DNA from: Sclerodactyla briareus
Taxonomy: Eukaryota > Echinodermata > Holothuroidea > Dendrochirotida > Sclerodactylidae
Direction: 5' to 3'
NCBI GenBank assembly: GCA_026419785.1
Contig: JAODTK010005592.1
Coordinates: forward strand, 228,434-292,433
DNA: 64,000 bases
The first letter of the stretch is position 1. Each line of letters begins with the position of its first letter. The translations under genes were made by a program, and so were the position numbers. The notes under the pieces were generated by a model. It ran no database searches and was not told where the DNA came from. It saw only the letters and a program-made list of their open reading frames with translations. Of this stretch, positions 1,533-21,992 are shown piece after piece.

Positions 1533-4500
1533 GTAAGGCTATACGGAAATTAAAATGCGAGTATTTCAATGTCGCCCTCGGTGAACCAGCCTAAACGCTA
1601 TTTAGCTTTTTATGGTGCCTTATTATGTTGGTCCCACATCGCAAAATGCTCGTTGAACAAACATGACCCCTGGTTATTTATAGTAACTTGGCAAACCCCA
1701 TTACGGTTATTCATACGATAGGGACCCTCTCCAGTGAGCGCTCACCCAACTTTTTTTGCAAGGCAGGTCACTACCCAATCTGTCAAGTGAGTAGGCATAG
1801 GGTAGGCATAAATACAATATTGAGTACGATTCAATTAACTCACTGAAAAATTCAATTCTTTTCCATTCATTCCTCTGAAAAATATATCCAAAACAAACAT
1901 ACTCTGGTAGGCACCCTCTCTGAAACTTTGCGAGCACCTGGCGCTTATTGGAATGAATGTGGTGTATTGGACACATTCCTATACTCTGGCACTGGGCTCA
2001 CTGATGGAAGTCCTGCCTCTTCATCATGTTCCCTGGGCCCTTCCCATAACACAAGCTAGATCCCAATGTCCCCAAAATCAAACTGGATGATACTAAGTTA
2101 TTCCTTACACTGTCTCTGCCCAAAATTTGGCGTCATTCTTGACAGAAATGTCGATGAACTGATTCATTGACCAGAAGAATAAGGCTGCTTGGTACTACTT
2201 GTGTAACATCGGGAAAAATTGTCCTATCTTCACTGCTAAGTATATTGAGCAACTTGTCATTGCTCCCGTCACTACCAACATGATTACTGTAACATGTTGC
2301 TGTCCGACTTCCGTCTACCCAGCTATCCATCCAAACTTCAGCATATTCAGAACGGGGCTGCAAAGTACGTGCACCCCCAACGCTCCAGGATTAGGCTGTT
2401 CTTAGCCATCTTCACTGGCTTCCTGTTGAGCAAAGGATCTTGTTTAAGGTTCTCCTTATTGTTTTTTCGAGCTATTACCACTGGCTCCCCATCTTACATC
2501 ACATATTACCTGAATCCTATCGACCCTCTAGACTATGTCTCAGTAGTGCTGACAGAAATCTTCTAGTTGTTCCACCTGACAGATAAAATCCTACGGGACG
2601 ATTCTTTCCAAAACATTTGCGGTGTGTTCAATGGAAGCACTTACGTTGTCTGTAAAGAAATCAGAAATCCATACCCTAGCTTCAAATCAAAGCTCAAGAC
2701 ACCAAAAATATCCTTTTCTAGGGCTTTTCCTGAGGACCTGTAGTTCTTTACTCTAGGTTGTATGTTCAGTGCTTCAGGTCTTAGATCCCTCATTGCGAGT
2801 TGTATTTTTAACTATATAAGTGCTTCATTATTATTGTTATCATTATAAGGGCAGCCACATGCAGCTCTAGCACATCACCATACAAGTTATCCCACAAGGT
2901 CAATGAAATGAAAAGGATTGAGCTACAGCACCATTGGTGCTCTAGTTTCCATAATAATTGAAAAACGAATGCGATGGATGCAAGGTTGAAACGGAACAAA
3001 AAAATGGGAAAAATTTCTAGTCCAGCGTTGGGCGAGTGAGCTAGCAACATATAGCTTTGCAGTTATGTTACGATGCAGCTGTGATGTCCGCAGCGGCTGG
3101 GATATTCAGCAAATATGCAATACACGCTCAAACCCACGTGGGGAAAGTTCATCATTTTTGACAGGTTGGGGATGATGGCTGCGATGTAGCGCAGATGGGA
3201 TGGCAAAAAATACAAGTATGATAGCACTGGATTTTGTAATTTTAATTAGTACCGGGATTTGATGGAACATACCGGTTATTTCCGCAGTACCAGGAATAGT
3301 AACTGTGCATTTGACCGTCAGTACTGTGAGTACCGGTTGCTGCGAAAGTAGTACCCAGTTCTAATCATCTTCACAATATCAGTGGTATCAGGTCCCTGAA
3401 CAAAAATGGCACAGAGACGCTGATTACGTTTTTGATTCCTTGCGAAGTCGGAGGAATCTATGCCAGTCATGCAGTGTGTGTGTATGTGGTATGTGTGTGG
3501 TATGTATGTAGTGTGTGTGTGTGTGTTAATGTTGTGTGACGCAGGGCTTGTGAACACAATAATTGGACCCCACCTAGGTGGATGAAGATCATATTTGGTG
3601 ATGTGTTCCCTATGATGAGTACATGAACCTAGGGTTTTGGGGTCGGTCGAGTCATTGAGGTCACCAGAGGGCAAAGTATGAAAACCTTGTGAACACGATA
3701 AGTCCAGAATGGTTGGTCGGATGGGGTTCAAATTTGTGTGTAGCTTTCTATGGGGAGGGAACAAGAACCCTATGGTTTTTGGTATAGTCAGGGGGGAATT
3801 TGGGTCATAAATAGAAAATTTGTGAAAAGTCATGTAATTTGGCCAATTGTGGCTTGTGAACACGATAACTTGACCACTACCGGATGGAATGAAGCTAATA
3901 CTGGGTGCATTGTGTCCCATGAAGTACATGAACCCTATTGTTTTGGGTAGGTCAAGGTCATCTGATGTCACCCGAGTGGTCAAAAGTATGAAAACTTGTG
4001 AACACGATAAGTCCAGAATGGGTGGTCTGATGGGGTTCAATATTTGGGTGTAGCTTTTTATGGGTGAGAACAAGAACCCTATTGTGTTTGTTATAGGTCA
4101 GGGGTAATTTTGGTATCAAAAATAGAAAAATTTGTGAAAATCAATAATTTGGCCAATTTTGGCTTGTGAACACGATAACCGACCCTACCTGGATGGATGA
4201 AGACTCATACGTGGTATGTTGTGATCCCCATGATGAGTACCATGAAACCCTATTGCTTGGGGGTCAGGTCTGAGGTCACCAGAGGTCAAAGTATGAAAAC
4301 CTTGTGAACCGATAAGGCCAGAATGGTTGGTTGATCCAGGTTCAAATTTGTGTGTAGCTTTCGTAGGGGAGTACAGGAACCCATTGTTTTTGGTATAAGT
4401 CGGGGGTTGAATTTTGGTCAAATAGAAAAATTTGTGAAAAGTCAATAATTTGGCCAAAGTTGGGTTGTGAACACGATAACTCGATCCCACTTGGATGATG

Positions 4501-7265
4501 AAGCTCATACTTGGTATGGTGTGTTCCCCATGATGAGTACATGCACCCTGTCGTTTTGGGGTCAGGTCAGAGCACTGAGGTCACCCGAGGTCAAATTCTG
4601 AAAACATGTGTGAACACGATAAGTCCAGAACGTATGGTCTGATCAGGTTCAAATTTGGTGTGTAGCTTTCTTATGGGGACTAAAGACCCCTATTCAATTG
4701 TTTTTTGTAGAAGGTCGGGAGTGAATTTTTGGTGAAAAATAGGGGATTTGTGAAAAGTCAATAATTTGATTCCATTGTGCTGTGAACATGATCTGACCCC
4801 ACCTGATTGATGAAGTTCATACTTGGGGTATGTTGTGCCCATGAGAGTACATGAACTCTATGGTTTTGGGGTCAGGGCAGATGTCATCTGAGGTTAGCAG
4901 TGGTCAAAGTCTGACAACCTTGTGAAAAACACGATAAGTCAGAATGTTGTCTGATCAGGTTCATAATTTGGTTGTGTAGCTTTCTTTGGGGAGTACAGGA
5001 ACCCTATTGGTTTTGGTATAGGTCGGGGGTGAATTTGGTCAAAAATGAAAAAGTTGAAAAGGTCACTAATTTGGCCAATTGGGCTTGTGACACGAGAACT
5101 CGACCCCACTGGATGGATTGAATGAAGTCAATACTGGTATGTGTTTCCCCATGGATGGAGTACATGAACCCTATTGTTTTGGGGTCAGGTCAGAGATAAT
5201 TACAGCTGATACAATTCCCACTTGTTCCTTGTGCTGGCTAAGGTGTCAGGAAGAGTAAGAATCCTAAGCCTTTTGGCTTTCTGGTTATCATGTCTCAGCT
5301 TGACTGTGGGAAAAGCCTCCTGCTAGCTAGCACTGGTCTTCCGAAGCACATATTCAAGTTGAAGGCTTTGCAAAGCTGCTGGATTAGATCTGTAATACGA
5401 TGGGATCTGATCGCATCACACCGGCCCGTCACAAACTACACTGGTTACCTTCCAAACAGAGGATCAACTGTGAAATTACTCTTGCTTGCTATGCTTGCTT
5501 GCTTGGGAAAATCCTCCATAGCTTTGCCAAGTTTATCTCATCAGACACATGGTTCACCTGTTCTGTCGACCTACATTATGAAAAAGCTAATCACTTGGTT
5601 GAACCTTAATTTAAAATCAACAACTATCTTCTTGAGAAAAGCTCCTAGACTATGATACTCTTAATCAAACTTGGGAACCGCCGTCGGTGCCACCATCATC
5701 CCACAGCCGCTAATTGTTGGTTGATTGTACGTGAAGGCGGCACAAAAAATAATCCATCTCATTCACCAGAGATTTAGCAGTCCAGATCAATTCATCATAT
5801 CTTCTTCATTATTCTGTAGCTTCAAATGATCAACAGCTTTGCCATCATCGTAACACTGTGCTATTACCTGTCAGTATCTGATCTCGCTCCGAATACTGAA
5901 CAGCTGCTTCAATTATGGTTTGATTGATTGTTTCTCTGTGACGTTAGGAACAGCGCTGCCCACCTTACCACTTGGCGGATGGGGTTAGAGGTCGGTCTCT
6001 CTGCCTGAGCTCACACTGAAGACTGTCAAGATGGCCTCCACCAAAAATACTATGACAACCTACCTCAAACAGGTTAGTTCAGGGTGTCTGTTAGACAAGG
6101 CATTGTTCTCGACATTTCTCCCGCTACTCATGTGTACAAGTAGGTGCCCGCGGTGGCTGCCATGGGTGTAGTAGGCGTGAGCAAACGTGCATCTCTGGAG
6201 GTGCAGGCAAGGTCTTCATCAGGTTATCGATGACAATGGGGTTAATTCCCAGTGGTGTGAAGAAGTGCTGCCTTGATACAAAACTATGAACAGAATCTTA
6301 TCTGACAATTGATACACCCCACAGTCCGGGAATGAGGAAAAGGGGCATTCCCCAGAGTCACAGTCTTGTATAGACCACATGTTACAGACCCCACCCTATC
6401 AGCTGGTGTCAATCAGACTCACCTACCGTCACATAGGGGAATGCAACATTGTACAACAATTACCCAGGTGAGTCACCCTGTGATTGGAAAATGACCTACA
6501 CATTAACCCACCTGGTGGGTGGTAGTAGCGGACTGTGTCTTACAGTTGATAAAATCATAACATTGCGAGTGCGACTCCGTCAGGAGTCCCCAGTCAATTG
6601 CAGAGGGAGGATGGGTGATTATGTCCTGCAATAAACTCGTCAACTTTATCAGATTGTCCTAACTTGTGCACATGCCCCCTGTGAAATCTTGGAGGGTGGT
6701 GTATAATGCTGTTTGGCGCCCTCTATTTTGCAGGTTTTAGCAAAAAAGTTAGTCCAATTACACAAAATTGGGAGGTTGGGGACAATAGTTGACGTCCTAT
6801 AAAAAAAACAATCCATGATTTCAAGGTCACCCAAGGTTCAAATTGTTTTTTTGTTCTTTCCCCCAATTTGAAGAAATTTGAGTGAATGTGGATTATGGTT
6901 GGTACTGAACAACAGGTAGGTATTTCAAAGTCAGGGAGGTCTTTTTGAGGTCCACAAAGGAAGATGTGGGAATATGTGATTCACCTATCCGGCCACAGGT
7001 CCAACTCTTTCTTCTATGGCGCAATCCTTGTCGAGTTTAAACCAGAGATTTGTGAGGCATCGTTCATCTTGTAGCAATTGGTAAAGAAGCAACAGTGACA
7101 TGGGCAGGAGATCTCAATGAAAATGTCATAGCACAATGATATGTCAATTGAAAAATTAGTTCCGTTATACCGTGAGAATTTGTTTTGTTGCTTGTTCCTA
7201 TCGCATCTTTAAATGGCATTTTCCTCATTTGCCTGGCATTGAGACTTGTTATATATATATATATA

Positions 7266-10300: not shown

Positions 10301-13300
10301 ATTTATTTTTCGCCGATCCAAGCCGCGCATACATCGCAGCTCAACCCGCAACCGGGTGAAAAATTATAGAACGACCCCCCCACGTGTGTACCAGGCTGTG
10401 TACTTTCATTATTTGCCAATATCCTGCCGCCACGGACATCGCAGCTTTGTGGTAACATAATGATAAAACTGCAAAGCTATATGTTGCTTGCTCACTCGCC
10501 TAATGCTGTTGCACTAGTTCAAGACATAGCCCTGTTTGGAACATGTGGTCATCACCTACTTACTGTTCACAAGCATTCTGACAATGCATTCCCACTGATA
10601 ATGTACAGTGCGTTACACAACTACCAAGTCGGCCACTCCTATTGATTTGGTACAGGCCGCTGACAGCAAACCTTTTAATCGCACACACTTAACATCTATG
10701 GAGTTTTAACTGACTCTGTGATTAAGGACTGGAATTATTAGCGCTCGTCGTTCCACTTCGATCCGCGATACTGCGATGTATTTTCGTGTGGGCCTACATT
10801 TCTATGAATGAATTAATGTGAAATTGGGCAATCGGTGGAAAAAGATAATTATACATGAAGGTTTAGCGCAGATCTGGTGGTTTTAGGGCTGATTTTAGAC
10901 TGCCGTGCTTCATTTTCTTGCTAACATAATCACAGTTAGGTTTCGGTTTGGGGCTTACTGGTAGTTGCACAAGCGATCTGTTTGTACTGTGCATGTGCGG
11001 TGCCGGGCGTACATACGTAGGTACGTGTGGAAGAATGTAGTAGTTTTTTTTTTTGGTTTTGTTATTTCTGCACGTTGCATGTTTAAATAAAGAGAGACAC
11101 GTTGTATGATGCTCCGTGCAGGTTTATTTGCAATTATTTCTTCATTCCCCTATATCATAATAGAACAGTCTGATTGATGAAAAGGATTGGCCTGCATTTA
11201 CACAGCTGAATAGGTACTAGACATAAATGAATATGGAGGGGATAACAATGCTGGATTTTATCACTAATGGCATTAACTAGAAGATGAAGTCTGGAAACTC
11301 ATAATATCAAGATCACGTTGACTTTTCTTATGATTGTTTTTTATCAGAGTTACAATTCATTACTAATCAATCTGCTAAGGGATATACATATCTTTGACCT
11401 GGACGACACGTACCTATTGCACCTGAAGTTAACACTTGCCCTCGGGCGGGACCGTGTTTGGGGTTCCGGAGCAGCACGTCCCCCTTGGCGGCACAATACC
11501 TTTTGTTGAACGGCATCGGTGAAAAAAATGGTTTGACTCGGTTAGCAAATCGGAAACTGACCGGTTTTGCTCAGGAACTAATCGTGCAGCCTTAATACAG
11601 ACTACAGATTGCGGTAGCCGACGGGCATTTCGCAACTGAAATCCAGTGGCCCGAGGGCACGGAGAGGAAGCCCCGGGCTACCGGCGCATAGGATTTTTCG
11701 AGCACTGATTTCCCCCGAGAGTACCTTGTTTTTTCTTTTATTTTGGATCAGTCTGAATTTTCCAAGGATCTTTTTACCCAGTTTTGAATGGTTACAACCC
11801 TGCATAGTGTGTCTAGAAAGTGAAACACAATCTAGTGAACAATTGCACCAATTTACATAAGGGCCTAGTAGCATTACCCTTCTCCACCACCAGCCAATAC
11901 ATAAGGGCCTAGTAGCATTACCCTTCTCCACCACCAGCCAATACATAAGGGCCTAGTAGCATACCCTTCTCCACCACCCGCCAATACATAAGGGCCTAGT
12001 ACATTACCCTTCCCCCGTCGCCCCACCGCCTTGTGCAGTAGGTACATATTGATATCTGCCAGCAATCCTGGTTGAGTAAAAATTCCAGATGAACTAGCAG
12101 TTCGAGCGCTGAGCCAGGAGTTAATTGGGTGACAACAGAAAGGAACTAACCGTCCAGGGGAGGAATTGATTATAGAAAGCATTTAAGAGCCGGACAATCT
12201 ATTTGAGAAAGTAAGATGTGAGGAGTAAGATGCAAGATTGAACTGGAAAATGAAGTGGCAGAAATGCGTCATTGGTTGAGGGGTGAGGTGTGGTCAGCAA
12301 TTCCTATCACCCTACCCCACCCCTTCCCCTGGTAGTGCCTGTTTGAAATTTCAATCACCCTTTTATCCTCCACATGCAACGAATTCGGAGGGGGGCTTCC
12401 CGAGACGTCAAACTCGAAGAGAAAATTCACGAACTCTCTAGAAAGACGGTATAGGTGCCCAGTTTGGGGCACGTAAATTTCTGCCATGATGTGCGTGTTT
12501 GTAAACGGGATGGCCCAGGCACGGCATCTTGCCCTGTGGGTATCGGAGTGTCCTGCTCAGCTGATCGTCAGGTAACTGTGAATTGAATTCGTTATTAACA
12601 CTGACAATTTTATAACATGATTTTACAATGTTCCAATTTGCAACGTGATACTAAAACACTATGTTGGGAAAGTAAGAATCTTTTTCTCATGTTCCTCCAA
12701 TAACTCCCCTAATATAGAACCCTGCATCCCCTGGCAATAAGATTCTGAACTGGCCACCCCTCACCATTCTTATTTTACCAGACCTACTGTCTTTTCTATT
12801 TTCTTTCTAACCTATTCAAGGCCCAAGCAGGATGTAGACCTGGATAGTGCACCCCCTATTTTCAGCTGCGAATCCCTCATCATTAGCACGAAATGAGGCA
12901 CATGCCTCTTCCCGTGGTACCTCACGGTGCGGGGTGGGGGCGCGTCGCTGCAGATGTTTTTTTTTCACGATTGCCTCCCCTTGTTTATCCCTGCTCCAAT
13001 CCCTTGCCCTTAGCAACATGCAAGAAGGCAACATGTAAATTTTCTAAGTCTGTGGTATGGCCAACCAGGATTTGAACCCTCCGGCTGATTCCCTGAATGG
13101 AAGGCCAAAGCTCGTCCAATTGTGCCAACCACTTGGTTATAGCTCTAGCTCAAGTTTTTGGCTTTGTTTCTTTTGTTTCCCCAAACTTCCCAAATTTTGT
13201 TCAGACTGCTGGTGTGCTGCGAGGGATTGATTCCTGTCAACTTTTCAGTTGTCAGTATCAGTATCATGCATCATATTTTAGAAACCAGAACAAAGTTCTT

Positions 13301-16300
13301 AATACACTCAAAGTAGACACAATATGCACATGATGGGGATGATTTCCAATTTATCTAATCTAATTTTATCTAATCTAATTTAGCTAATTCTAAATACTCC
13401 TCTTACAATGCTTCCAAAGGTGAACCCACTCTTGGATTCACTGTCAATTCTAATGAGGAACCTCCGTTGAAATTCGGGCACTGTCCATTCATACCATAAC
13501 GGGAACTTGTGTCAGTTTGCTTTTATATAGCATAGATCCACTATTCTACGGTGTCCCATGTAAAGTTTGCGATAGTTGCAACTTATTGGAAGAATGAGTA
13601 GTAAAGTATCTAATAGGCCTGTTTGCAGTTACAGTTAATGAAATGATAATGCTATGGTATCATAGGCACTGGCTGTCTGACATTGCACCAACAGTGTGAA
13701 GAACATTCTCTCAAGACGCCTCTGATGAAAATCCACATCCAACCAGCACAAGGCTTTACAAATGTACCCCTATATTTATCAATGCTAATATAGTAAATCT
13801 TTTCCAAAGAGTGGTGACAGTTTAGCAATGATCCATAGTGATAGGGAGGGAGGCCGATTAGCTCCAGGTCGGTAGCGAGTCCATACTGCAAAGCATTGAT
13901 GCGAATTCGGAAGCCCCTTGGAAGCCCAAGGGCTTTTCCGCAGTGCTGTTGGACAAGGCATGTCTCCTGAATGTCACACGCCACCCACGTGGGTACATCG
14001 TGAGGTGACTTGTGAAGAGTAGCGAGCGCCGATTGGCAGCCCTATTGGGAAGTCCCCCGGGGGACCGATGAAGCAACGTACTGTAATGGTGCGTCGGGAG
14101 AGAACAAGCGAGAGGTGCGTGCTACATAGAACGGGTGTGACAAGTCACTAAATGATCAGGGGTAATATCTGTAAAGCATTTTGAGCATGTATTCGATGTG
14201 GGAAAGCTCTATATAAGAACGAGATATTATTATAGCGCCGTGGGGAACATCTTGTCTATACTGCTGAACTGCTCAGTGGAAAGCATGCACACTTATAACC
14301 ATTAACAGGCCTCTAGTTATACATCTATTTGGAATTATTATTTTCCCCCTTGCAGTCGCCACCTCCCTTCACCTCCAAGCATAGCCGGTCACAGGCCGTC
14401 TACCTTGATTCGGGATATTCCAAATTAAGACAGAAGGCCTGTGACTGACCCGTGCTAAAAGACACTCTCCACAGTGTTTCATAATCAGCACCTTCCCTGA
14501 GACTGGATCCTGAGACACATGACATAAGTAGCATAGTGGCCGATCATGAGCGATCACGGTTGTGAATTGATCAACTCATCATTTTTTGTCTCGCCTGAAC
14601 ATGGATTCAGGGTCACTGGAGGTCATTCACACATCTAATTTGCATAAATTATGCATAATGTTAAAGTTTGCCAGATTTCCATGAAACTTGGTAGATATGG
14701 CTTCCCTTTACTCTCCAACATTTTTTACAAGACTGGAGGAAACTGGAGTCATTCATGTGTCTATTTCGCATGGTTCATTCCAAATTTCAAAGTTGGTTCG
14801 ATTTTCATGAAGCTTGATTGGTATGGTCTAACTTTAGTCCCCCAAGATGTTACATTGACTTGAGTCACTGGGGTGTATAAATTGATCCATTCATGTGAAT
14901 GTTCAAGTTTGTTGGATTCCATGAAATGGTCCACCATTGGTCCTGAGATATGTGAAGTGAGAAAATGGGTCAATGGAAGTTTAATATTGTGTCTAATTTG
15001 CATAATTTAGGCAATCTTATAGTCACATTTCCACAAAACTTCTTATCCTTTAGTAGACATTGTCAATAATCAGTCCTTACGAATTTGAAATCAGTCACTG
15101 ATTAGTAGGCTGTTCCCGTTAAATGCTAATACCAAAATCTTGAACAAACACATGGAAGACTTGTATTGGTGCATGGTGGGAACGAAAGGTAGGAAACACT
15201 GATCGTGCAACCAGGCGAGACACTGGAGCGGGGGGGGGGAGGGGCATTCGCCTTGTTTACTGTAGAAGCGTGCTACGTACTGCTTGTAAATATTGCTAGA
15301 TTAAATCATGTGCAGGACAGTACACTTCTACTATGGATGCATCAAAAGAAGCAATCCTCCCTATGTACCTATTTTGGGGGGAAAAAAATGCCCTCACTGG
15401 ATTTTGGTGTTTCTGTAACTGGCAAAACTACTCTGCCAACGATTTGCTGCAGAGAACAAGGAAAAGGTTCTTCTACATTCTTTACTCACACCTAAAGTCT
15501 GTGAACCTACTTGGGATTCTCTGAGGAGCTCCTCTATACAGATGTAGTCTCACAAAACTTGATATATTGTATACCCTCCAATAAAATTAGAATGGGCCCA
15601 TGTCCCCTCCCTCCTCCCCTAACTATGAAAGATTATCAATGGTAATTTGTACTAAGGTACATTTTGAATCTCAATACATACCCAAGTATACATTGCTGGT
15701 TATATATACCTCCCACCCGTCATGTGTGCAGAACATTTTCATTGAGATATGTTCTTCCATTCTCTTTACTCTCCTCTAGGCTCTTGGCAAGATTACAGAG
15801 GAAGGCGTATTCCTGGAGCAGCTGGAGACCAACCCTGATAAATACCTCCGGAGGTGGATGAATCTCATTTCAGTAGTGATGTTGTGAAGGTAGGGGAATG
15901 TTTGTGTGTGGAACCCAAATAAATACCTCTTAGAAGAGGATGAATCTCATTTCAGTAGTGATGTTGTGAAAGTAGGAGAGTGTTTGTGAGTTAAAACCCA
16001 GATGAATACCTCCCAGAGAAGGATAAATCTCATCTCAGCAGTGTTGTTGTGAAGGTTAGGGGAATTTTTGTGTGTGGAACCCGAATAAATACCTCTTAGA
16101 AGAGGATGAATCTCATTTCAGTAGTGATGTTGTGAAGGTAGGAGAGTGTTCGTGTGTGGAACCCAAATAAATACCTCTTAGCAGAGGGTGAATCTTATTT
16201 GAGTAGTGATGTTGTGAAAGTAGGAGAGTGTTTGTGAGTTAAAACACAGATGAATTCCTTCCAGAGAAGAATGAATCTCATTTAAGTGGTGATGTTGTGA

Positions 16301-19300
16301 AAGTGAGAGTGTTTGTGTGTGGAATCCCCGGACCCTACCTTCCCCTAGGTGGGTGGATGAATCTCATCTCGGCGGTGATGTTGTGAAGGTAGGGGAATGT
16401 TTGTGTGTGGAACCCAAATAATACCTCTTAGAAGAGGATGAATCTCATTTCAGTAGTGATGTTGTGAAGGTAGGAGAGTGTTTGTGAGTTAAAACCCAGA
16501 TGAATACCTCCCAGAGAAGGATAAATCTCATCTCAGCAGTGTTGTTGTGAAGGTTAGGGAGTGTTTGTGTGTGGAACCCGAATAAATACCTCTTAGAAGA
16601 GGATGAATCTCATTTCAGTAGTGATGTTGTGAAGGTAGGAGAGTGTTCGTGTGTGGAACCCAAATAATACCTCTTAGCAGAGGGTGAATCTTATTTGAGT
16701 AGTGATGTTGTGAAAGTAGGAGAGTGTTTGTGAGTTAAAACACAGATGAATTCCTTCCAGAGAAGAATGAATCTCATTTAAGTGGTGATGTTGTGAAAGT
16801 GAGAGTGTTTGTGTGTGGAATCCCAGATAAATACCTCTTAGAAGAGGATGAATCTCATTTCAGTAGTGATGTTGTGAAAGTGAGAGTGTTTGTGTGTGGA
16901 ATCCCAGATAAATACCTCTTAGAAGAGGATGAATCTCATTTCAGTAGTGATGTTGTGAAGGTAGGAGAGTGTTCGTGTGTTAAATCCCATACAAATACCT
17001 CCCAGAGGTGAACGAATCGCATTTCAGTAGTGATGTTGTGAAGGTTAGGGAGTGTTTGTGTGTTAAAACCCAGATTAATTCAGTGGTGAAGTTGTGTGTA
17101 TTCCAACACGTGCATTTTGTATTCAACTGCGTGTTCCTAATGCATGCATGTTAGTATTCACCTGTGTATACTTGAACATATGTTTGTTAGTATTCACCTG
17201 TGTGTATTCAATGCATCCACATCAGTACTCATCTATGTGTACTGAATGCATGCATGTAGTATTCACCTATGTGTACTGAATGCATGTGTGTTAGTATTAA
17301 ACTGTGTATACTCAATGCATGGATGCTAGTATTCACCTGCATACTCAGACACATGCATATTAGTATTCAACTTTGTGCATTCAATGCTTGCATGTTTCAT
17401 GGATTTTAATGTGTGTACTCAAACACATGTATGTTAGTATTCACCCGTGTGTACTCAATGCATCCACATCAGTACTCATCTATGTGTACTGAATGCATGC
17501 ATGTAGTATTCAACTGTATGTACTCAATGCATGCATGTTTGTATCGATCTGTGTACCGTGTCTTCAACAACAAACCAGCAAAAATGTGCTTGAGTGTTTC
17601 AAAACCAATTCTTTTTTAGAGGGTACCAAGCTATCAGGCTACATTTCCTGGAGAAAGAGCTATTTAACAATATTGGTAAATGGGAAAAAAAGGTTATGAA
17701 TTTCCTCCACCTGTCATGGTATTTATCTAGCCCCCCCCCCACAGGTGTTATATGATCTAATAACCAGAACAACCACTTTTCCAGGTGGGGGAGGGGGGAC
17801 AGATCCAGTCAAACCAAAGACCAACTGCTGTTGTTCGGGTGTGGTGCTCCACCAAAGCAAATGGAGTAGGGGAATACAACTTAGTGCCCGTGACAGCTTA
17901 GTCTTGCCCAAGACGCTTCGTTTCTCCACACCTACTCATTATTCTGTCAATGACTCACTTTTTCCATGCGCAACACCCATAGAATTATATACATGCTGTG
18001 TTATGTGTCTATCAAAACATCTTGTTGCACTCCCCATGAGCAAGAAATATTCCAGAACATAAACATCAATGATATTGAAAATGAATGCCACCTTTGATAC
18101 CTCATCTACCAGGAGAACTAATGTCAAAACTACAGCACTCAAATCATTTCTATTCTCGGAGAAAAATGGTGAATTTTTACTAATGCTATCGTTTCAACAG
18201 ATTTTTTTAAACTGTAGTTCTTGTAAAGTCAATACATTAGATTCCACAGTATGGTAGCTTCGTGGCTGGAAAGGAGGACATGAACTGAAGGTTGAATGGA
18301 ATTTTAATTGAACTTGACCGCATGTGGTATGTGAGGGGTGTTTTCGTATAACATGATTAGTGCACAGTATTGCTCTAAGGTGAGATGGAGAGAAGTCTAA
18401 GATGGATTCACTCACAAAGCATGCAACCACTGATATATTTATTTGAAACCCACAGGTGGACTTGAATCAGCCAATGAAAGACATCCTGGAGACTCTGTCC
18501 CAGTACCCAATCAAGACGCGACTCAGCCTTTCTGGGACCCTCGTCGTGGCCAGGGACATAGCTCATGCCAAGCTCCTCGAAAGGTTAGAGAGTGAAGGTG
18601 CTCTTCCACAATACATTAAGGATCACCCTGTGTATTATGCTGGCCCTGCAAAAACTCCAGAGGTGAGTCCATATCAGTCAGTATCATTTCATCTGTTGCC
18701 AAAAGGCTGGAAGAGATATTGCAGTCAGTTTGCCATCTCACTTATATCCACTGTTACTGGTTGCCATGATAGCAACTGTTGCTGTGGTAACAGTTCTTGT
18801 GGTTGAGAACTTCTCACTGAGGGGTACCCCATGGTGGCTTACTAATGGGTGCGGGGTGGTCCAGGTGCACTCAAGAAGGTGTGCATTAGTGTGTGTGTTT
18901 GTGTGTTCGTCAGATTTTTGATGGTTTCTTCTCCCATAATATGCCCAGTTTGGAGTGGCCAAACATCTTGAAATTTTACACTTGCCTGAATAGTTACAAG
19001 ACACACATTTCTCATGAAATTAGGCAAAAGTTATCAAAAGTGTGAAATTTAGGGGGGAAACACCTTGGGGGCAAATTTTCATCAATTTCCCACATTTCTT
19101 TCAAGATATTTTCTGATTCCAATGGTTTCCATGCAATCAGCCAAAAATTACCAAAATGTGAACTCAAGGTGGGGAAAGTTATTATCGGCCAAAAATTGGG
19201 ATTTTTTTTTATTAAGTTTCCTTCAATATATTCAGAGATTGGAAGGACTGGTGGGTTCCATATTTAACAATTTACAAATTTAACAAATTACCATTTCTAC

Positions 19301-21992
19301 TGAGAAATTCCAGTAATTTTCATGATTATGATTTTTTTTCCAGGAAAAACTGCAGTTTCAGACATATTTTGATAAATTTTCACTATTTGCTACTTGGCAA
19401 GATATTTGGAGATAGAAAAGATTTTCTTTCCAGGGATGCCGATGAGATTCTGCAACTCAGGAGTGGGAGGGAGGTGATTTCCTCCTTGTTGGAGTCATTA
19501 GTGATAATATTGACTTAATATGGACTAATGGTGGGAAGTGATAGCCTGGGGAAGGGTTCTGATACAACTAACAGCTCTGCCAACGAAAACCAGTCATGGG
19601 TCTCGATCCTAGTGAGAGGGGAAGTTGAGGGTGAGGAGGGAAGGAGGGGTGTTTGGGAGGGTGGGGGGGGGGGTTGATGAATAGCCTATTGAGTGTTGAG
19701 GAATCAAAAGAATATGTATATATGCAGTCATATCAGTGTGTATATACATGTGTGTGTTGTGTATGTGATGCCTGTCTTGTGGACACAATAGCTTGACCCC
19801 ACTTGGATGGGTGAAGCTCGTACCTGGTATGTGTGCCGCAAAAAAGAGTACATGATCCCTGTTTTTTTGGCACCAGGTCAAAAGTCATCTCAGATCAACA
19901 GAGGTCAGTCTGAAAAAATTGTGAACATGATAAGGCCAAAACGCTTGTTCCGATCAAGCCGGAATTTGGTATGCAGCTTTCTAATGGGCAATACAGAATA
20001 ATCCTGTTTCCGGTGTTGATTAGGGGTCGCTTTTAATAGACAGGTTGACCAGTACATACAGCATGGAATAGAAGGCAGAAGATCTCAGATCTGCATGCTT
20101 TTCCAATGATTTTTGCGACGGTATTCTGGAGACGTTGGAGCCAATGAATTGAGGGCGAGAGTGGCCTGGAAGAGATTAATTAGAGATCAATTACCATAGT
20201 CGGGGTCTTCTGCTTATAACCATGTAGCCAATTTAGAGGGAGAAAAGCTGTCACAGAAGACGGGGGAAGCATAGGTCTCGTTGGGACAGACATTCAATCT
20301 TCATCTGCATAGTCCAATCCATGAAAACTCTGAGTTACTCTCTCTACCTTTCTATAACGACTGTCCAGATTTGACAGTTTATAAAGACTGTCCAAATTTG
20401 ACAGTTTATGAAGACTGTGCAAGTTTGACGGAGAAGGTGTTCATGTGGGCACAAGCGTACAAGTACAGATGACAATGTACGACTAGCATGGCCATTACAA
20501 GACAGGAGGAGGAACAACCTGTGACAACACATTGGTTTTATACGACTTGAGGATGATCCCACTATACGTGTGGGCTATCCCATTAGGAACTGGGACGATT
20601 CCACATCAAATCTTGGCCATACCAGAATAAACATACACTATACATTTCACCAACCTTTCTGGTCATTATGGTTTCGATTCTATGTCCAGAATGCGAGATG
20701 GACACCTCGTCACTAGGCTACACTCAGAGCTGTGTAATGAATCAGTTCATGGAACAATCCTTCTTTTTTCCTCCCCCGTCAGGGTTATGCATCTGGATCT
20801 TTTGGTCCGACCACGGCTGGGAGGATGGATTCCTACGTTGACACCTTCCAGGCCGCCGGAGGCTCGATGGTCATGTTAGCCAAGGGGAACAGGAGTAGAC
20901 AGGTAGGTTCTCTTCTTCAGTAGGGCTTGAAGGTCAGTGGAAGACTAAAACATGACTTCGAAGATTGTGAGATGGCGCATTGACGAGTTCTTGCAAATAG
21001 GATGAATTGCGCTATGGTTTTCCGAACTCGCTTATTTCACTGGGATTGCTTTGCTTTATTGAATGTCTTCAGAGGAATAGAGGTAAATGTGATAGTCTTT
21101 TATATTGTTATCTCCAGTTCCTCAAATATATATATTTCTCACCATTGCAGTGCAATGTTCATTAGGCCATGGACAGTACCATACCACTGCGATTGCTATA
21201 TTTAATTATTTGTAGATCAATGAAGTATATGTGAGAAATTGTATATTGCTGTAATATCTCCTGTTTGTTTAATATAGTTTTACAATTGTGGTGCAATATC
21301 ACATAGGCCGTGTACAATATCACTTAGATTGCTCTGGTATGTCAAAACATTGATGAACAATAGAGGTATATGTGAGGCATATATGTGAGAGTTTATCGTT
21401 GTTACAACTCTAGTTCACTGAATAGAATCTTACCGATGCAGTGCAATGGCCACTAAGAATATTCCATACACTGTGATTGCCTATGCTTCATTTAATTAAG
21501 ATGAGACTGGTGCAGGTTTCGACAGGTTTGTTTGAAGCAAATGATAAATTGTCACAATTTGTTGATAGCGTGAATAAGGTATCTGAAGAGCAGAAATCCA
21601 TCGCGATGGGAGGAGACAAATTGACATAGAATGGAATCATATTGTTCTGATAGCGTGAATCACCCGATAGCGTAGATAACGTATCTAAAAAGCAGAATGT
21701 TGGGAGAAGTCCAGCTCTCGTCGTTTATACTAATGTGCCGCTTACCCTCGTCCAATCAATCTGTGTTCTCCAGGTGACCAGCGCCTGCAAGAAGCACGGT
21801 GGGTTCTACCTGGGCTTCTCTCGGTGGGACGGCGGTATCGTGGCCCAGAACTGCATTAGGAAGGTTGAGGTGTTGGAGTACCCAGAACTGGGCATGGAGG
21901 CCGTCTGGCGGGTCGAGGTCGAAAACTTCCCGGCGTTCATCGTCGTTGACGACAAGGGTAACGACTTCTTCAAGAAGTGGCAGGTTGAGTAA
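1311..21992 (+). CDS. class I fumarate hydratase (iron-sulfur type), gene overview, 5' end outside window
   Basis: Seven exons encode a protein collinear with Escherichia coli FumA from about residue 148 to near the C-terminus. Class I fumarases interconvert fumarate and malate at a 4Fe-4S cluster. Of the cluster cysteines in FumA numbering, C224 (AACPPYH) is in the second visible exon and C318 (GVSCSAD) in the third; C105 (TCQDTG) would lie in exons to the left of the window. The catalytic residues R393 (VARDIAHAK), T439 (GPTTAGRMD) and K463 (LAKGNRS) are all present. Exon borders fall at GT/AG sites for most exons, which shows a eukaryotic gene and not bacterial contamination. The cell compartment cannot be told because the N-terminus is missing. 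Exons A, B, C and D need single-base indels to stay in frame and exon G carries a cancelling pair. The family call is firm; whether this copy is functional depends on whether those indels are sequence errors. Confidence 0.93.
2100..2745 (+). mobile_element. CR1-like LINE, 3' reverse-transcriptase remnant
   Basis: Scrambled frames read pieces typical of the C-terminal end of CR1/jockey-type reverse transcriptases: an [17 protein letters not shown] block (usually LxxLQxVQNAAAR), then [12 protein letters not shown] where an L-x-GxAPxYI block is expected, and finally [17 protein letters not shown], matching the usual FKxxLKTHLFxxAF tail. Several frame changes separate the blocks, so this is an old fragment lying in the fumarase intron. 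Confidence 0.65.
2985..3130. repeat. dispersed repeat, copy 1 of an inverted pair
   Basis: The reverse complement of this stretch matches 10385-10520, sharing for example CTGCAAAGCTATATGTTGCT and CTCACTCGCC. The two copies are about 7.4 kb apart in opposite orientation; the second lies inside the 9646-11594 transposon. Confidence 0.6.
3475..3535. repeat. imperfect GT microsatellite
   Basis: Interrupted (GT)n and GTAT tract directly before the 308-bp satellite. The same order, GT tract then an ACACGATA-type core, recurs at several places in the window. Confidence 0.8.
3540..5195. repeat. tandem satellite, unit about 308 bp, about 5.4 copies
   Basis: The phrase TTGTGAACACGATAACT followed by GACCCCACCTGGATGGATGA recurs near 3550, 3855, 4164, 4467, 4780 and 5085. 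A second marker, GAACACGATAAGTCCAGAAT, lies half a unit away near 3690, 4000, 4305, 4610 and 4925. Copies differ by many small indels. There is no convincing coding content: the long minus-strand frames here are a by-product of the repeat. Related single units occur near 19.77 and, reversed, 49.3 kb. Confidence 0.85.
5320..5660 (+). mobile_element. LINE reverse-transcriptase 3' fragment
   Basis: One frame reads [19 protein letters not shown], matching the ITPVLxxLHWLPVxQRI block near the C-terminus of CR1-like reverse transcriptases, followed by a degraded K-I-L-L-x-Y-K-A-L-like stretch ([14 protein letters not shown]). Upstream, KALQSCW is at the place of LQxVQNxAAR. Frame changes show it is a remnant. 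Confidence 0.65.
5941..6072 (+). CDS. fumarase exon B (FumA residues about 218-260, second Fe-S cysteine)
   Basis: Blocks in successive frames read [33 protein letters not shown], then a G split by gttagt. FumA has TLGTAACPPYHIA and ETNLKTVKLASAKYYDELP here. The Cys of CPPYH is the second 4Fe-4S ligand (C224 in FumA). Several single-base indels are needed, mostly around 5954-6005 and 6047. The base pair before the exon reads TG where AG is expected, consistent with a missing A. Confidence 0.82.
7240..7325. repeat. AT microsatellite
   Basis: Alternating (TA)n tract with a few interruptions, immediately upstream of a SINE. Confidence 0.9.
7330..7760 (+). mobile_element. tRNA-derived SINE (family 2) with internal duplication
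   Basis: The box-B-like block GTTCCGAGTTTGAA plus GTGATCGGAAGG and GGCGCTGTCAGGAACC occur twice, near 7365-7480 and 7503-7613. Then come GCAGCCATGTGATAATTGTC and GGTTGCCAGGAGTGTGTAGC. The same 3' body follows the copy at 22.2 kb, so this is a shared element. The head is duplicated in tandem here, by either duplication or nested insertion. Confidence 0.7.
8265..8765. repeat. two direct copies of a dispersed repeat, about 355 bp apart
   Basis: CAGGGTCCGAAATACTTTTT near 8271 and CAGGGTTCGGAATACTTTTT near 8621 each start a stretch with matching GGCTATTTT / GTACTATTTT, AAAAATCGCCCC / AAAAATTGCCCC and CTACTTGAAATAAA / CTACTTAATAAATA blocks. Confidence 0.6.
9646..11594. mobile_element. second non-autonomous hAT-type element
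   Basis: The left end begins TACAGGCTGCACGGTTA and the reverse complement of the right end begins TAAGGCTGCACGATTA. Both continue into AAAACCGG and then a CGAGTC / CGGTTT-rich stretch. The 8-bp ATACAGAC flanks it at 9638-9645 and 11595-11602. Shared sequence runs a little past the 8 bp, so the exact ends are uncertain by a few bases. No transposase is visible. The element lies in the fumarase intron between exons B and C. Confidence 0.65.
10385..10520. repeat. dispersed repeat, copy 2 of an inverted pair
   Basis: Inverted partner of 2985-3130 (see that entry), nested in the hAT-type element. Confidence 0.6.
11855..12020. repeat. 44-bp tandem repeat, about 3.7 copies
   Basis: Unit starts ACATAAGGGCCTAGTAGCAT and continues TACCCTTCTCCACCACCAGC. 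The first two units are identical, the later ones carry small deletions. The apparent minus-strand glycine/tryptophan-rich frames are produced by the repeat. Confidence 0.9.
12376..12571 (+). CDS. fumarase exon C (FumA residues about 261-322, third Fe-S cysteine)
   Basis: Blocks read [52 protein letters not shown] and end at CAG before gtaact. FumA has NEHGQAFRDV, LGLGAQFGGKYFAHDIRV and [17 protein letters not shown]. The Cys in GVSCSAD is the third 4Fe-4S ligand (C318 in FumA). About four to six single-base indels are needed, and the acceptor reads CACAT where CACAG is expected. Confidence 0.88.
12840..13145 (-). mobile_element. tRNA-derived SINE (family 1)
   Basis: On the minus strand: a box A-like TGGCACAATTGGACGAGC, a box B-like GGGTTCAAATCCTGG, then GGGATTGGAGCAGG and GAGGCAAT matching the body of the 25.3-kb and 46.4-kb copies. 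It lies just after fumarase exon C. Confidence 0.7.
13652..13984 (-). CDS. unrecognised 110-residue open frame
   Basis: An open frame with an ordinary amino-acid mix, including [20 protein letters not shown] and LVQCQ-like wording ([11 protein letters not shown]). I do not recognise the family. It lies within the fumarase intron on the opposite strand and is followed by a SINE-like tail, so a degraded transposon product is more likely than a host gene. No start context or splice site supports it. Confidence 0.2.
   Translation of the reverse strand: MACDIQETCLVQQHCGKALGLPRGFRIRINALQYGLATDLELIGLPPYHYGSLLNCHHSLEKIYYISIDKYRGTFVKPCAGWMWIFIRGVLRECSSHCWCNVRQPVPMIP
14090..14235 (+). mobile_element. 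SINE tail, family 2-like
   Basis: Ends GGAAAGCTCTATATAAGAAC followed by an ATTATTAT run. The same 3' end (AAAGCGCTATATAAGAAC plus ATT repeats) closes the copy at 22.2-22.6 kb. Confidence 0.55.
14575..15265 (+). repeat. dispersed 650-bp repeat, copy 1
   Basis: Contains repeated short modules: CATGGATTCAGGGTCACTGG, AATTTGCATAAATTATGC and TTTCATGAAACTTGG. The end reads AGGCTGTTCCCGTTAAATGC, then CGTGCAACCAGGCGAGACAC. The same order and ending occur at 30680-31290. No coding potential. Confidence 0.75.
15780..15889 (+). CDS. fumarase exon D (seed of the tandem array)
   Basis: Starts after ctcctctag with [20 protein letters not shown] and continues KYL then [13 protein letters not shown], ending AAG before gtaggg. 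FumA has [21 protein letters not shown] at this place. The exon is 110 bp where 111 would keep frame: one C is missing in the CTCC run near 15848. The last 60 bp are the sequence amplified in the following intron. Confidence 0.9.
15890..17060 (+). repeat. exon-plus-donor derived minisatellite, about 14 units of 81-84 bp
   Basis: Each unit holds about 22 bp from the start of the intron (GTAGGGGAATGTTTGTGTG or variants) followed by a copy of the last 60 bp of exon D, still readable as [18 protein letters not shown]. Unit ends (GTTGTGAAR) fall near 15969, 16053, 16137, 16220, 16300, 16388, 16467, 16550, 16634, 16717, 16797, 16879, 16960 and 17043. Donor variants are AAG-GTAGGG, AAA-GTAGGA, AAG-GTTAGG and AAA-GTGAGA. 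The first half of exon D is not repeated. A block of about 498 bp is itself duplicated (15.88-16.30 against 16.38-16.80 kb). Confidence 0.93.
17090..17560. repeat. second minisatellite, unit about 35 bp
   Basis: Degenerate tandem copies of TTAGTATTCACCTGTGTGTA plus CTCAATGCATGCATG. A longer segment containing CATCCACATCAGTACTCATC appears at about 17213 and again at about 17462, so there is also a 250-bp higher-order period. It follows directly on the exon-derived array. Confidence 0.85.
17880..18055. repeat. dispersed repeat, partner of 57.25-57.39 kb
   Basis: Shares CCAAGACGC, TGCGCAACACCCATA and GTGTCTATCAAAACATCTTG with 57255-57390 (there TGCGCTACACCCATA and GTGTCGATCAAAACGTCTCG), in the same order and orientation. 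Confidence 0.6.
18456..18662 (+). CDS. fumarase exon E (FumA residues about 361-429, catalytic Arg)
   Basis: 207 bp, exactly 69 codons, bounded by cccacag and gtgagt. Reads [39 protein letters not shown], then [20 protein letters not shown] and TPE. The Arg of VARDIAHAK corresponds to FumA R393. No frame disruption. Near-identical in order and length to FumA. Confidence 0.97.
18880..18912. repeat. short GT tract
   Basis: Imperfect (GT)n followed by TTCGTCAGATTTTTGATGGT, one of several GT tracts in the window that precede dispersed-repeat sequence. Confidence 0.6.
19690..20035. repeat. solitary relative of the 308-bp satellite
   Basis: GTGTGT/TATATA tract, then CTTGTGGACACAATAGCTTG, ACCCCACTTGGATGGGTGAA, GAGTACATGATCCCTG and GAACATGATAAGGCCAAAAC in the order seen in each unit at 3.5-5.2 kb. 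Confidence 0.8.
20358..20430. repeat. 27-bp tandem repeat, 2.7 copies
   Basis: GACTGTCCAGATTTGACAGT followed by TTATAAA, three times with few changes, in the intron before fumarase exon F. Confidence 0.85.
20783..20902 (+). CDS. fumarase exon F (FumA residues about 430-469, catalytic Thr and Lys)
   Basis: 120 bp, 40 codons, bounded by cccgtcag and gtaggt. Reads [20 protein letters not shown] then [20 protein letters not shown]. Contains the residues equivalent to FumA T439 (GPTT) and K463 (LAKGNRS). No disruption; phase 0 on both sides. Confidence 0.97.
21060..21480. repeat. degenerate tandem triplication, about 150 bp
   Basis: The blocks GCAGTGCAATGTTCATTAGG, GTGGTGCAATATCACATAGG and GCAGTGCAATGGCCACTAAG are spaced about 150 bp apart, each followed by a CACTGCGATTGCT-like block. 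The copies are old. Lies in the intron between exons F and G. Confidence 0.6.
21774..21992 (+). CDS. fumarase exon G (terminal coding exon)
   Basis: Starts after tctccag with [14 protein letters not shown] and ends [41 protein letters not shown]. The open frame reads FSRWDGG where FumA has SIGGPAA. Reading one T fewer near 21816 and one base more near 21836 gives SLGGTAA, the expected conserved loop, so two opposite single-base errors probably cancel here. The protein stops about 7 residues earlier than FumA. No polyadenylation signal was pinned down. Confidence 0.96.

Follow-up and report, generated by a model that had tools for sequence, protein, structure and literature searches.

A tandem array across an exon-intron boundary of a class I fumarase gene, most likely of the amphioxus mirage kind

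The class I fumarase gene and the quality of its assembly

The window, by which the whole 64,000-nucleotide stretch of DNA under analysis is meant, forms the end of a 292-kb contig in an assembly of 319 Mb, and carries a fumarase of class I (iron-sulphur type) at 1349-21986 and 6.7 kb upstream (loci L085 and L086). A tblastn search with bacterial class I fumarases (the best 80 loci of at least 594 confirmed, retrieved by means of the exon peptides) located one such gene in 11 exon pieces, which extend from some 6.7 kb before the start of the window to position 21986; the pieces at -6711 and 5957 are weak matches. The usual animal fumarase belongs to class II. Among the matches listed, identity of the joined exon peptide to the bacterial enzymes reaches 78%, and a Fumerase_C family search returned three matches, all within this gene. 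The exon whose end is repeated, the exon that follows it and the parts of the array are given in Table 1.

As assembled, the exon at 15780-15889 seems to lack a base near 15848, a gap that the earlier note passed over, and is read into a TGA ahead of its donor; when that donor is joined to 18456 and reading follows the frame valid downstream of 15848, the product is a peptide much like the bacterial enzymes. Such frame breaks are found in the fumarase pieces 5957-6074, 12395-12574 and 15780-15889, and probably in 21771-21986. Judged by eye against the consensus, four homeobox places of the same assembly (L109, L111, L116 and L117/L120) read in more than one frame, L113 is doubtful and L108, L110 and L114 look clean, the remaining homeobox places lying outside this judgement. 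A fumarase pseudogene was considered as the cause of the frame breaks and set aside, since the homeobox places are broken as well and most fumarase pieces stay near the bacterial enzymes, which together argue for assembly error. Hence, the assembly seems to be rich in one-base indels, and the simplest reason for the base missing near 15848 would be an error of this kind. With so many apparent indels, one of them breaking the very exon in question, arguments from reading frame are fragile.

Table 1. Fumarase exons and components of the array (positions in the window)
Feature	Position	Strand	Remarks
Class I fumarase exon	15780-15889	+	From tblastn of bacterial class I fumarases; donor 15889/15890; its final 59 bp (15831-15889) form unit 1
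Tandem array	15831-17063	+	15 full units of 81-86 bp, each of exon end, donor and 22-24 bp of intron
Units 2-6, first copy of higher-order block	15890-16302	+	407 of 413 alignment columns shared with 16389-16798
Unit 7, copy of exon end	16303-16388	+	Acceptor-like TACCTTCCCCTAG (to 16348), 40 bp, strong donor at 16388
Units 8-12, second copy of higher-order block	16389-16798	+	From alignment to units 2-6
Units 13-15	16799-17043	+	Unit 15 retains the exon's GAG GTG (E-V) codons
Region with degenerate, donorless 16th unit	17044-17103	+	60 bp aligned; the unit fades out inside
Next fumarase exon	18456-18662	+	Acceptor 18455; phase 0 join to 15889

Architecture of the array

The tandem array is called by TRF with a period of 83, 15.0 copies and 80% matches. 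Unit 1 is the genuine exon end, and about 14 further copies lie downstream in the intron, ahead of a 16th, degenerate one. The earlier note had described about 14 additional copies of 60 bp of exon with its donor and some 22 bp of intron, and this description holds with only a slight adjustment, as 15 copies are present in which the exonic part, beginning with the exon homology at 15831, measures 59 bp and the intronic part 22-24 bp. Units were cut at the exon-end string TGTTGTGAA[AG], which itself biases the set to units with an intact exon end, and they end at 15889, 15971, 16054, 16137, 16219, 16302, 16388, 16469, 16552, 16634, 16715, 16798, 16879, 16960 and 17043, with a spacing of 81-86 bp throughout. 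A BLAST search of the window with the fumarase exon and 150 bp of flank gave matches confined to the array, and a DNA search of the same genome, in which the best candidates were scored, gave one place, namely the window itself.

Two main unit types are intermingled, one marked by TTAGAAGAGG or a close variant and the other by CCAGAGAAG. Identity between units ranges from 68 to 100%, and units of different type are up to about 30% apart. A higher-order block of five units is present twice, the two copies differing by three one-base indels and three substitutions. Between them lies unit 7, from which onward the sequence at 16352-16537 matches that from the exon end onward (15853-16039) at 96.8%. 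The interior of the array is thus made of near-identical blocks but also holds the most diverged unit, unit 7, while the exon's E-V codons are found at the far edge in unit 15.

Two further tandem repeats were called by TRF in the window. Right behind the array, at 17111-17544, lies a second minisatellite of 12.4 copies of a 35-bp unit, which looks unrelated, and at 3548-5195 a 309-bp unit is repeated 5.4 times and by eye resembles a single stretch near 19780.

Strength of the repeated donors

A GT directly follows the exon-like end in all 15 units. The earlier note held that most units keep a usable-looking donor, which stands as far as the dinucleotide is concerned and less well for the pairing with U1, which is strong in six donors (-9.7 for units 1 and 7, -9.2 for units 4, 8, 10 and 14), middling in three (-6.1 for units 3, 9 and 15) and weak in the other six (-4.6 for units 6, 12 and 13, -4.2 for units 2, 5 and 11). 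As a reference, two true donors of the fumarase gene have values of -8.0 and -10.8, and the 5% quantile of 212 nearby intronic GTs is -6.5. Donor 1 comes first in line, is surpassed in strength by no other of the array and has two weaker donors as its nearest rivals, and from this we infer that it is the one normally used. At the same time, the donors of units 4, 7, 8, 10 and 14 roughly equal the real one, so that some leak is likely. Retention of all 15 GTs could hint at selection, a signal weakened by the invariance of 37 of the 102 columns in the alignment of the 15 units and by the use of an anchor adjacent to the donor in finding the units.

Coding potential of the copies

When donors 2-15 are joined to 18456, all 14 products run, in the sequence as assembled, into an in-frame TAA in unit 2, ten codons beyond the exon. 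The suggestion that the array supplies alternative donors for protein variants is not supported, given this stop, into which every later donor leads. An open frame of 90 aa at 16739-17011, in which two units are open through the junction, is indeed present, as had been observed earlier for the 81-bp units, and counts against a neutral array; however, a transcript that arrives through the exon has already passed the TAA in unit 2. The exon-like frame has the lowest pN/pS of the three (0.48; the two shifted ones have 1.09 and 0.52), by a narrow margin that, with 8, 7 and 7 distinct 42-base ends, is too small to be useful.

Micro-exons had also been proposed, based on an acceptor-like string in each unit. 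This string, CATTTCAG, is exact in eight of the 15 units, although the AG at that point, 16 bases ahead of the donor, is kept in 14. Its context is poor, with 8-10 pyrimidines in the 18 bases upstream of the AG, whereas the true acceptors of the exon at 15780-15889 and of the next exon, scored for comparison, have 17 and 11, and in 10 of the 14 units bearing the AG, the 16-nt piece behind it opens with TAG. Micro-exons from CATTTCAG were rejected on these two grounds. Within the array, unit 7 has the best site of acceptor type, with 14 of 18 pyrimidines, and another at 17005 has 12. In sequence, the copies seem unsuited to making protein, and it is possible that they act as splice decoys.

Minisatellites and exon boundaries in the genome

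In a 220-kb sample of this genome, arrays with a period of at least 30 and at least 2.5 copies make up 2.18% of the sequence (3.64% with a looser cut), the sample consisting of 22 stretches of 10 kb, of which nine came from two contigs that had been selected on other grounds. With such a coverage, it is unsurprising that a splice site should lie inside an array. A total of 31 exon places (11 in fumarase, 15 homeobox, one ADH and four ABC matches) were tested for copies of a boundary on the plus strand with 1.5-3 kb of flank, and one was positive; among these places, L117 and L120 represent the two halves of a single broken homeodomain, and L115 and L121 possibly come from one gene. The other 10 fumarase exon places have no boundary copies within 3 kb. 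Random placement leads one to expect about 1-2 of the 62 boundaries of these 31 places in arrays, where one was observed, an expectation that is rough since exon edges are constrained and the places are non-random, the fumarase exon being the finding itself.

Searches of the same genome for the families GFP, globin, RAG1, tektin and COX1 returned no match, which says little, as such a search probably misses frame-broken exons. The ADH_N search returned one exon, by eye quinone oxidoreductase-like and not Adh3. Two posterior Hox homeodomains lie on one contig (C2999) at 54.0 and 235.3 kb; we take them to be Hox9/10-like and Hox11/13b-like, types that suggest an echinoderm or hemichordate.

Origin of the array and alternative explanations

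The array is very probably a neutral intronic minisatellite of the mirage type that straddles a splice donor, with normal splicing from 15889 to 18456 and the copies leaving with the intron. Bacterial fumarases encode the repeated stretch and unit 1 is continuous with that coding sequence, so the exon is older than the copies in the array and the direction is from exon to intron; the earlier view of the unit as a boundary derived from the exon is borne out by this. A segment of about 82 bp across the boundary would have been duplicated in tandem and would then have expanded into the two main unit types, with slippage or unequal exchange as the presumed engine. A later duplication would have copied some 499 bp at once, comprising the exon end and units 2-6. 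The presence of the block copy, together with the fact that unit 7 copies the exon end, implies that the latest large event seems to have taken the genuine exon end along with five units, and such a block suggests that exchange within the array can extend into coding sequence. The first donor would most likely still be joined to 18456 and the copies removed with the intron, and the array as such most likely has no function.

An alternative, which is unlikely, is that part of the array, above all the second block with units 8-12, arose through misassembly or through the mixing of two haplotypes. The closeness of the two blocks over 407 of 413 columns, with six small differences, would fit such an error, as would the frame breaks in several conserved genes of the assembly; however, the divergence of up to about 30% between unit types places the array as such beyond assembly error.

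Regular use of the later donors at a low rate is quite improbable. According to this explanation, the TAA in unit 2 would lead either to destruction of the transcripts or to a truncated enzyme, and the number of units would tune fumarase output. It draws on the five further donors with values of -9.2 to -9.7, which fall within the strongest 5% of the 212 background GTs, and on the stop that every later donor yields. Against it, the later donors closest to donor 1, in units 2 and 3, pair less well with U1 than it does (-4.2 and -6.1 vs -9.7), and the amphioxus Adh3 and globin mirages are said to leave splicing undisturbed (PMC3087553).

Recruitment of unit 7 as a 40-nt mini-exon that replaces the exon end with the frame kept would be highly improbable, even though it has a fair acceptor (14 of 18 pyrimidines) and a strong donor (-9.7), and a path that leaves the exon by an inner donor (15853), enters unit 7 through the acceptor at 16348 and exits by its donor at 16388 would restore the frame exactly in the assembled sequence. 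This path requires the base gap near 15848 to be genuine, its inner donor is weaker (-6.2), and the predicted product is without the proline kept in all 26 bacterial segments of the same length (58 of the 80 listed bacterial loci gave a segment and 22 gave none). If true, unit 7 would be a mirage-born exon caught in the act, near the model for new introns proposed in PMC3087553. That the unit is an older intronic repeat merely resembling the exon is hardly credible, as no supporting point was found, bacterial fumarases encode the same stretch at the same place, and no second place was met in the window or, among the best candidates scored, in the genome.

Comparison with known systems

The minisatellite of the human 6-16 gene (IFI6, G1P3) reportedly provides multiple splice donors to the transcript (Turri 1995, cited in PMC4526556); the likeness to the fumarase array is that a donor is offered by each unit. 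The unit of the 6-16 minisatellite is short. In the open-licence literature no boundary-spanning arrays outside amphioxus and 6-16 were found, a result that is not firm. As a single locus, the fumarase array is a curiosity, and a genome-wide count could gauge how often minisatellites straddle splice sites and whether introns or exons are seeded by them. Should the host be an echinoderm or a hemichordate, minisatellites that span such boundaries would not be peculiar to lancelets.

In the model of Rogers, which concerns intron gain, a tandem duplication over an intron-exon boundary gives ready-made splice signals (PMC4974935). The fumarase array differs in that it repeats the 5' splice site 15 times and has unit 7 as the sole candidate for a new exon.

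The closest likeness is to the amphioxus mirages, minisatellite-like tandem duplications across exon-intron boundaries that are described for Adh3, troponin C, the globins BflGb6 and BflGb9, and PGBD5 (PMC3087553, PMC3902484). For these, one of the accounts (PMC3087553) mentions regular splicing by RT-PCR, haplotypes with 6 units and with 3, and a part in intron gain as a proposal, and imperfect repeats over the splice sites of lancelet PGBD5, with Adh and troponin C cited, are described in the other (PMC3902484). The mirage kind is also marked by a unit number that varies between haplotypes or somatically. An array copying a boundary had been thought unusual, which is true in part, since tandem repeats of this kind have already been published as mirages. 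Both the mirages and the fumarase array are tandem across an exon-intron boundary, and many mirage units bear AG/GT splice signals, as does the fumarase array with its GT in 15 of 15 units. Some mirages are homogenised inside with diverged edges; the fumarase array has near-identical blocks in its interior and the exon's E-V codons in the edge unit 15, but its most diverged unit is the interior unit 7. Other differences are the number of units, 15 as compared to 6 and 3 in the BflGb6 haplotypes, with the fumarase array known from the DNA of one assembly, the wider range of unit identity (68-100% vs 81-100% in BflGb6), and a host that, from the Hox types, is probably no lancelet. On its sequence, the array in the fumarase intron most likely belongs with the amphioxus mirages, a kind already published.
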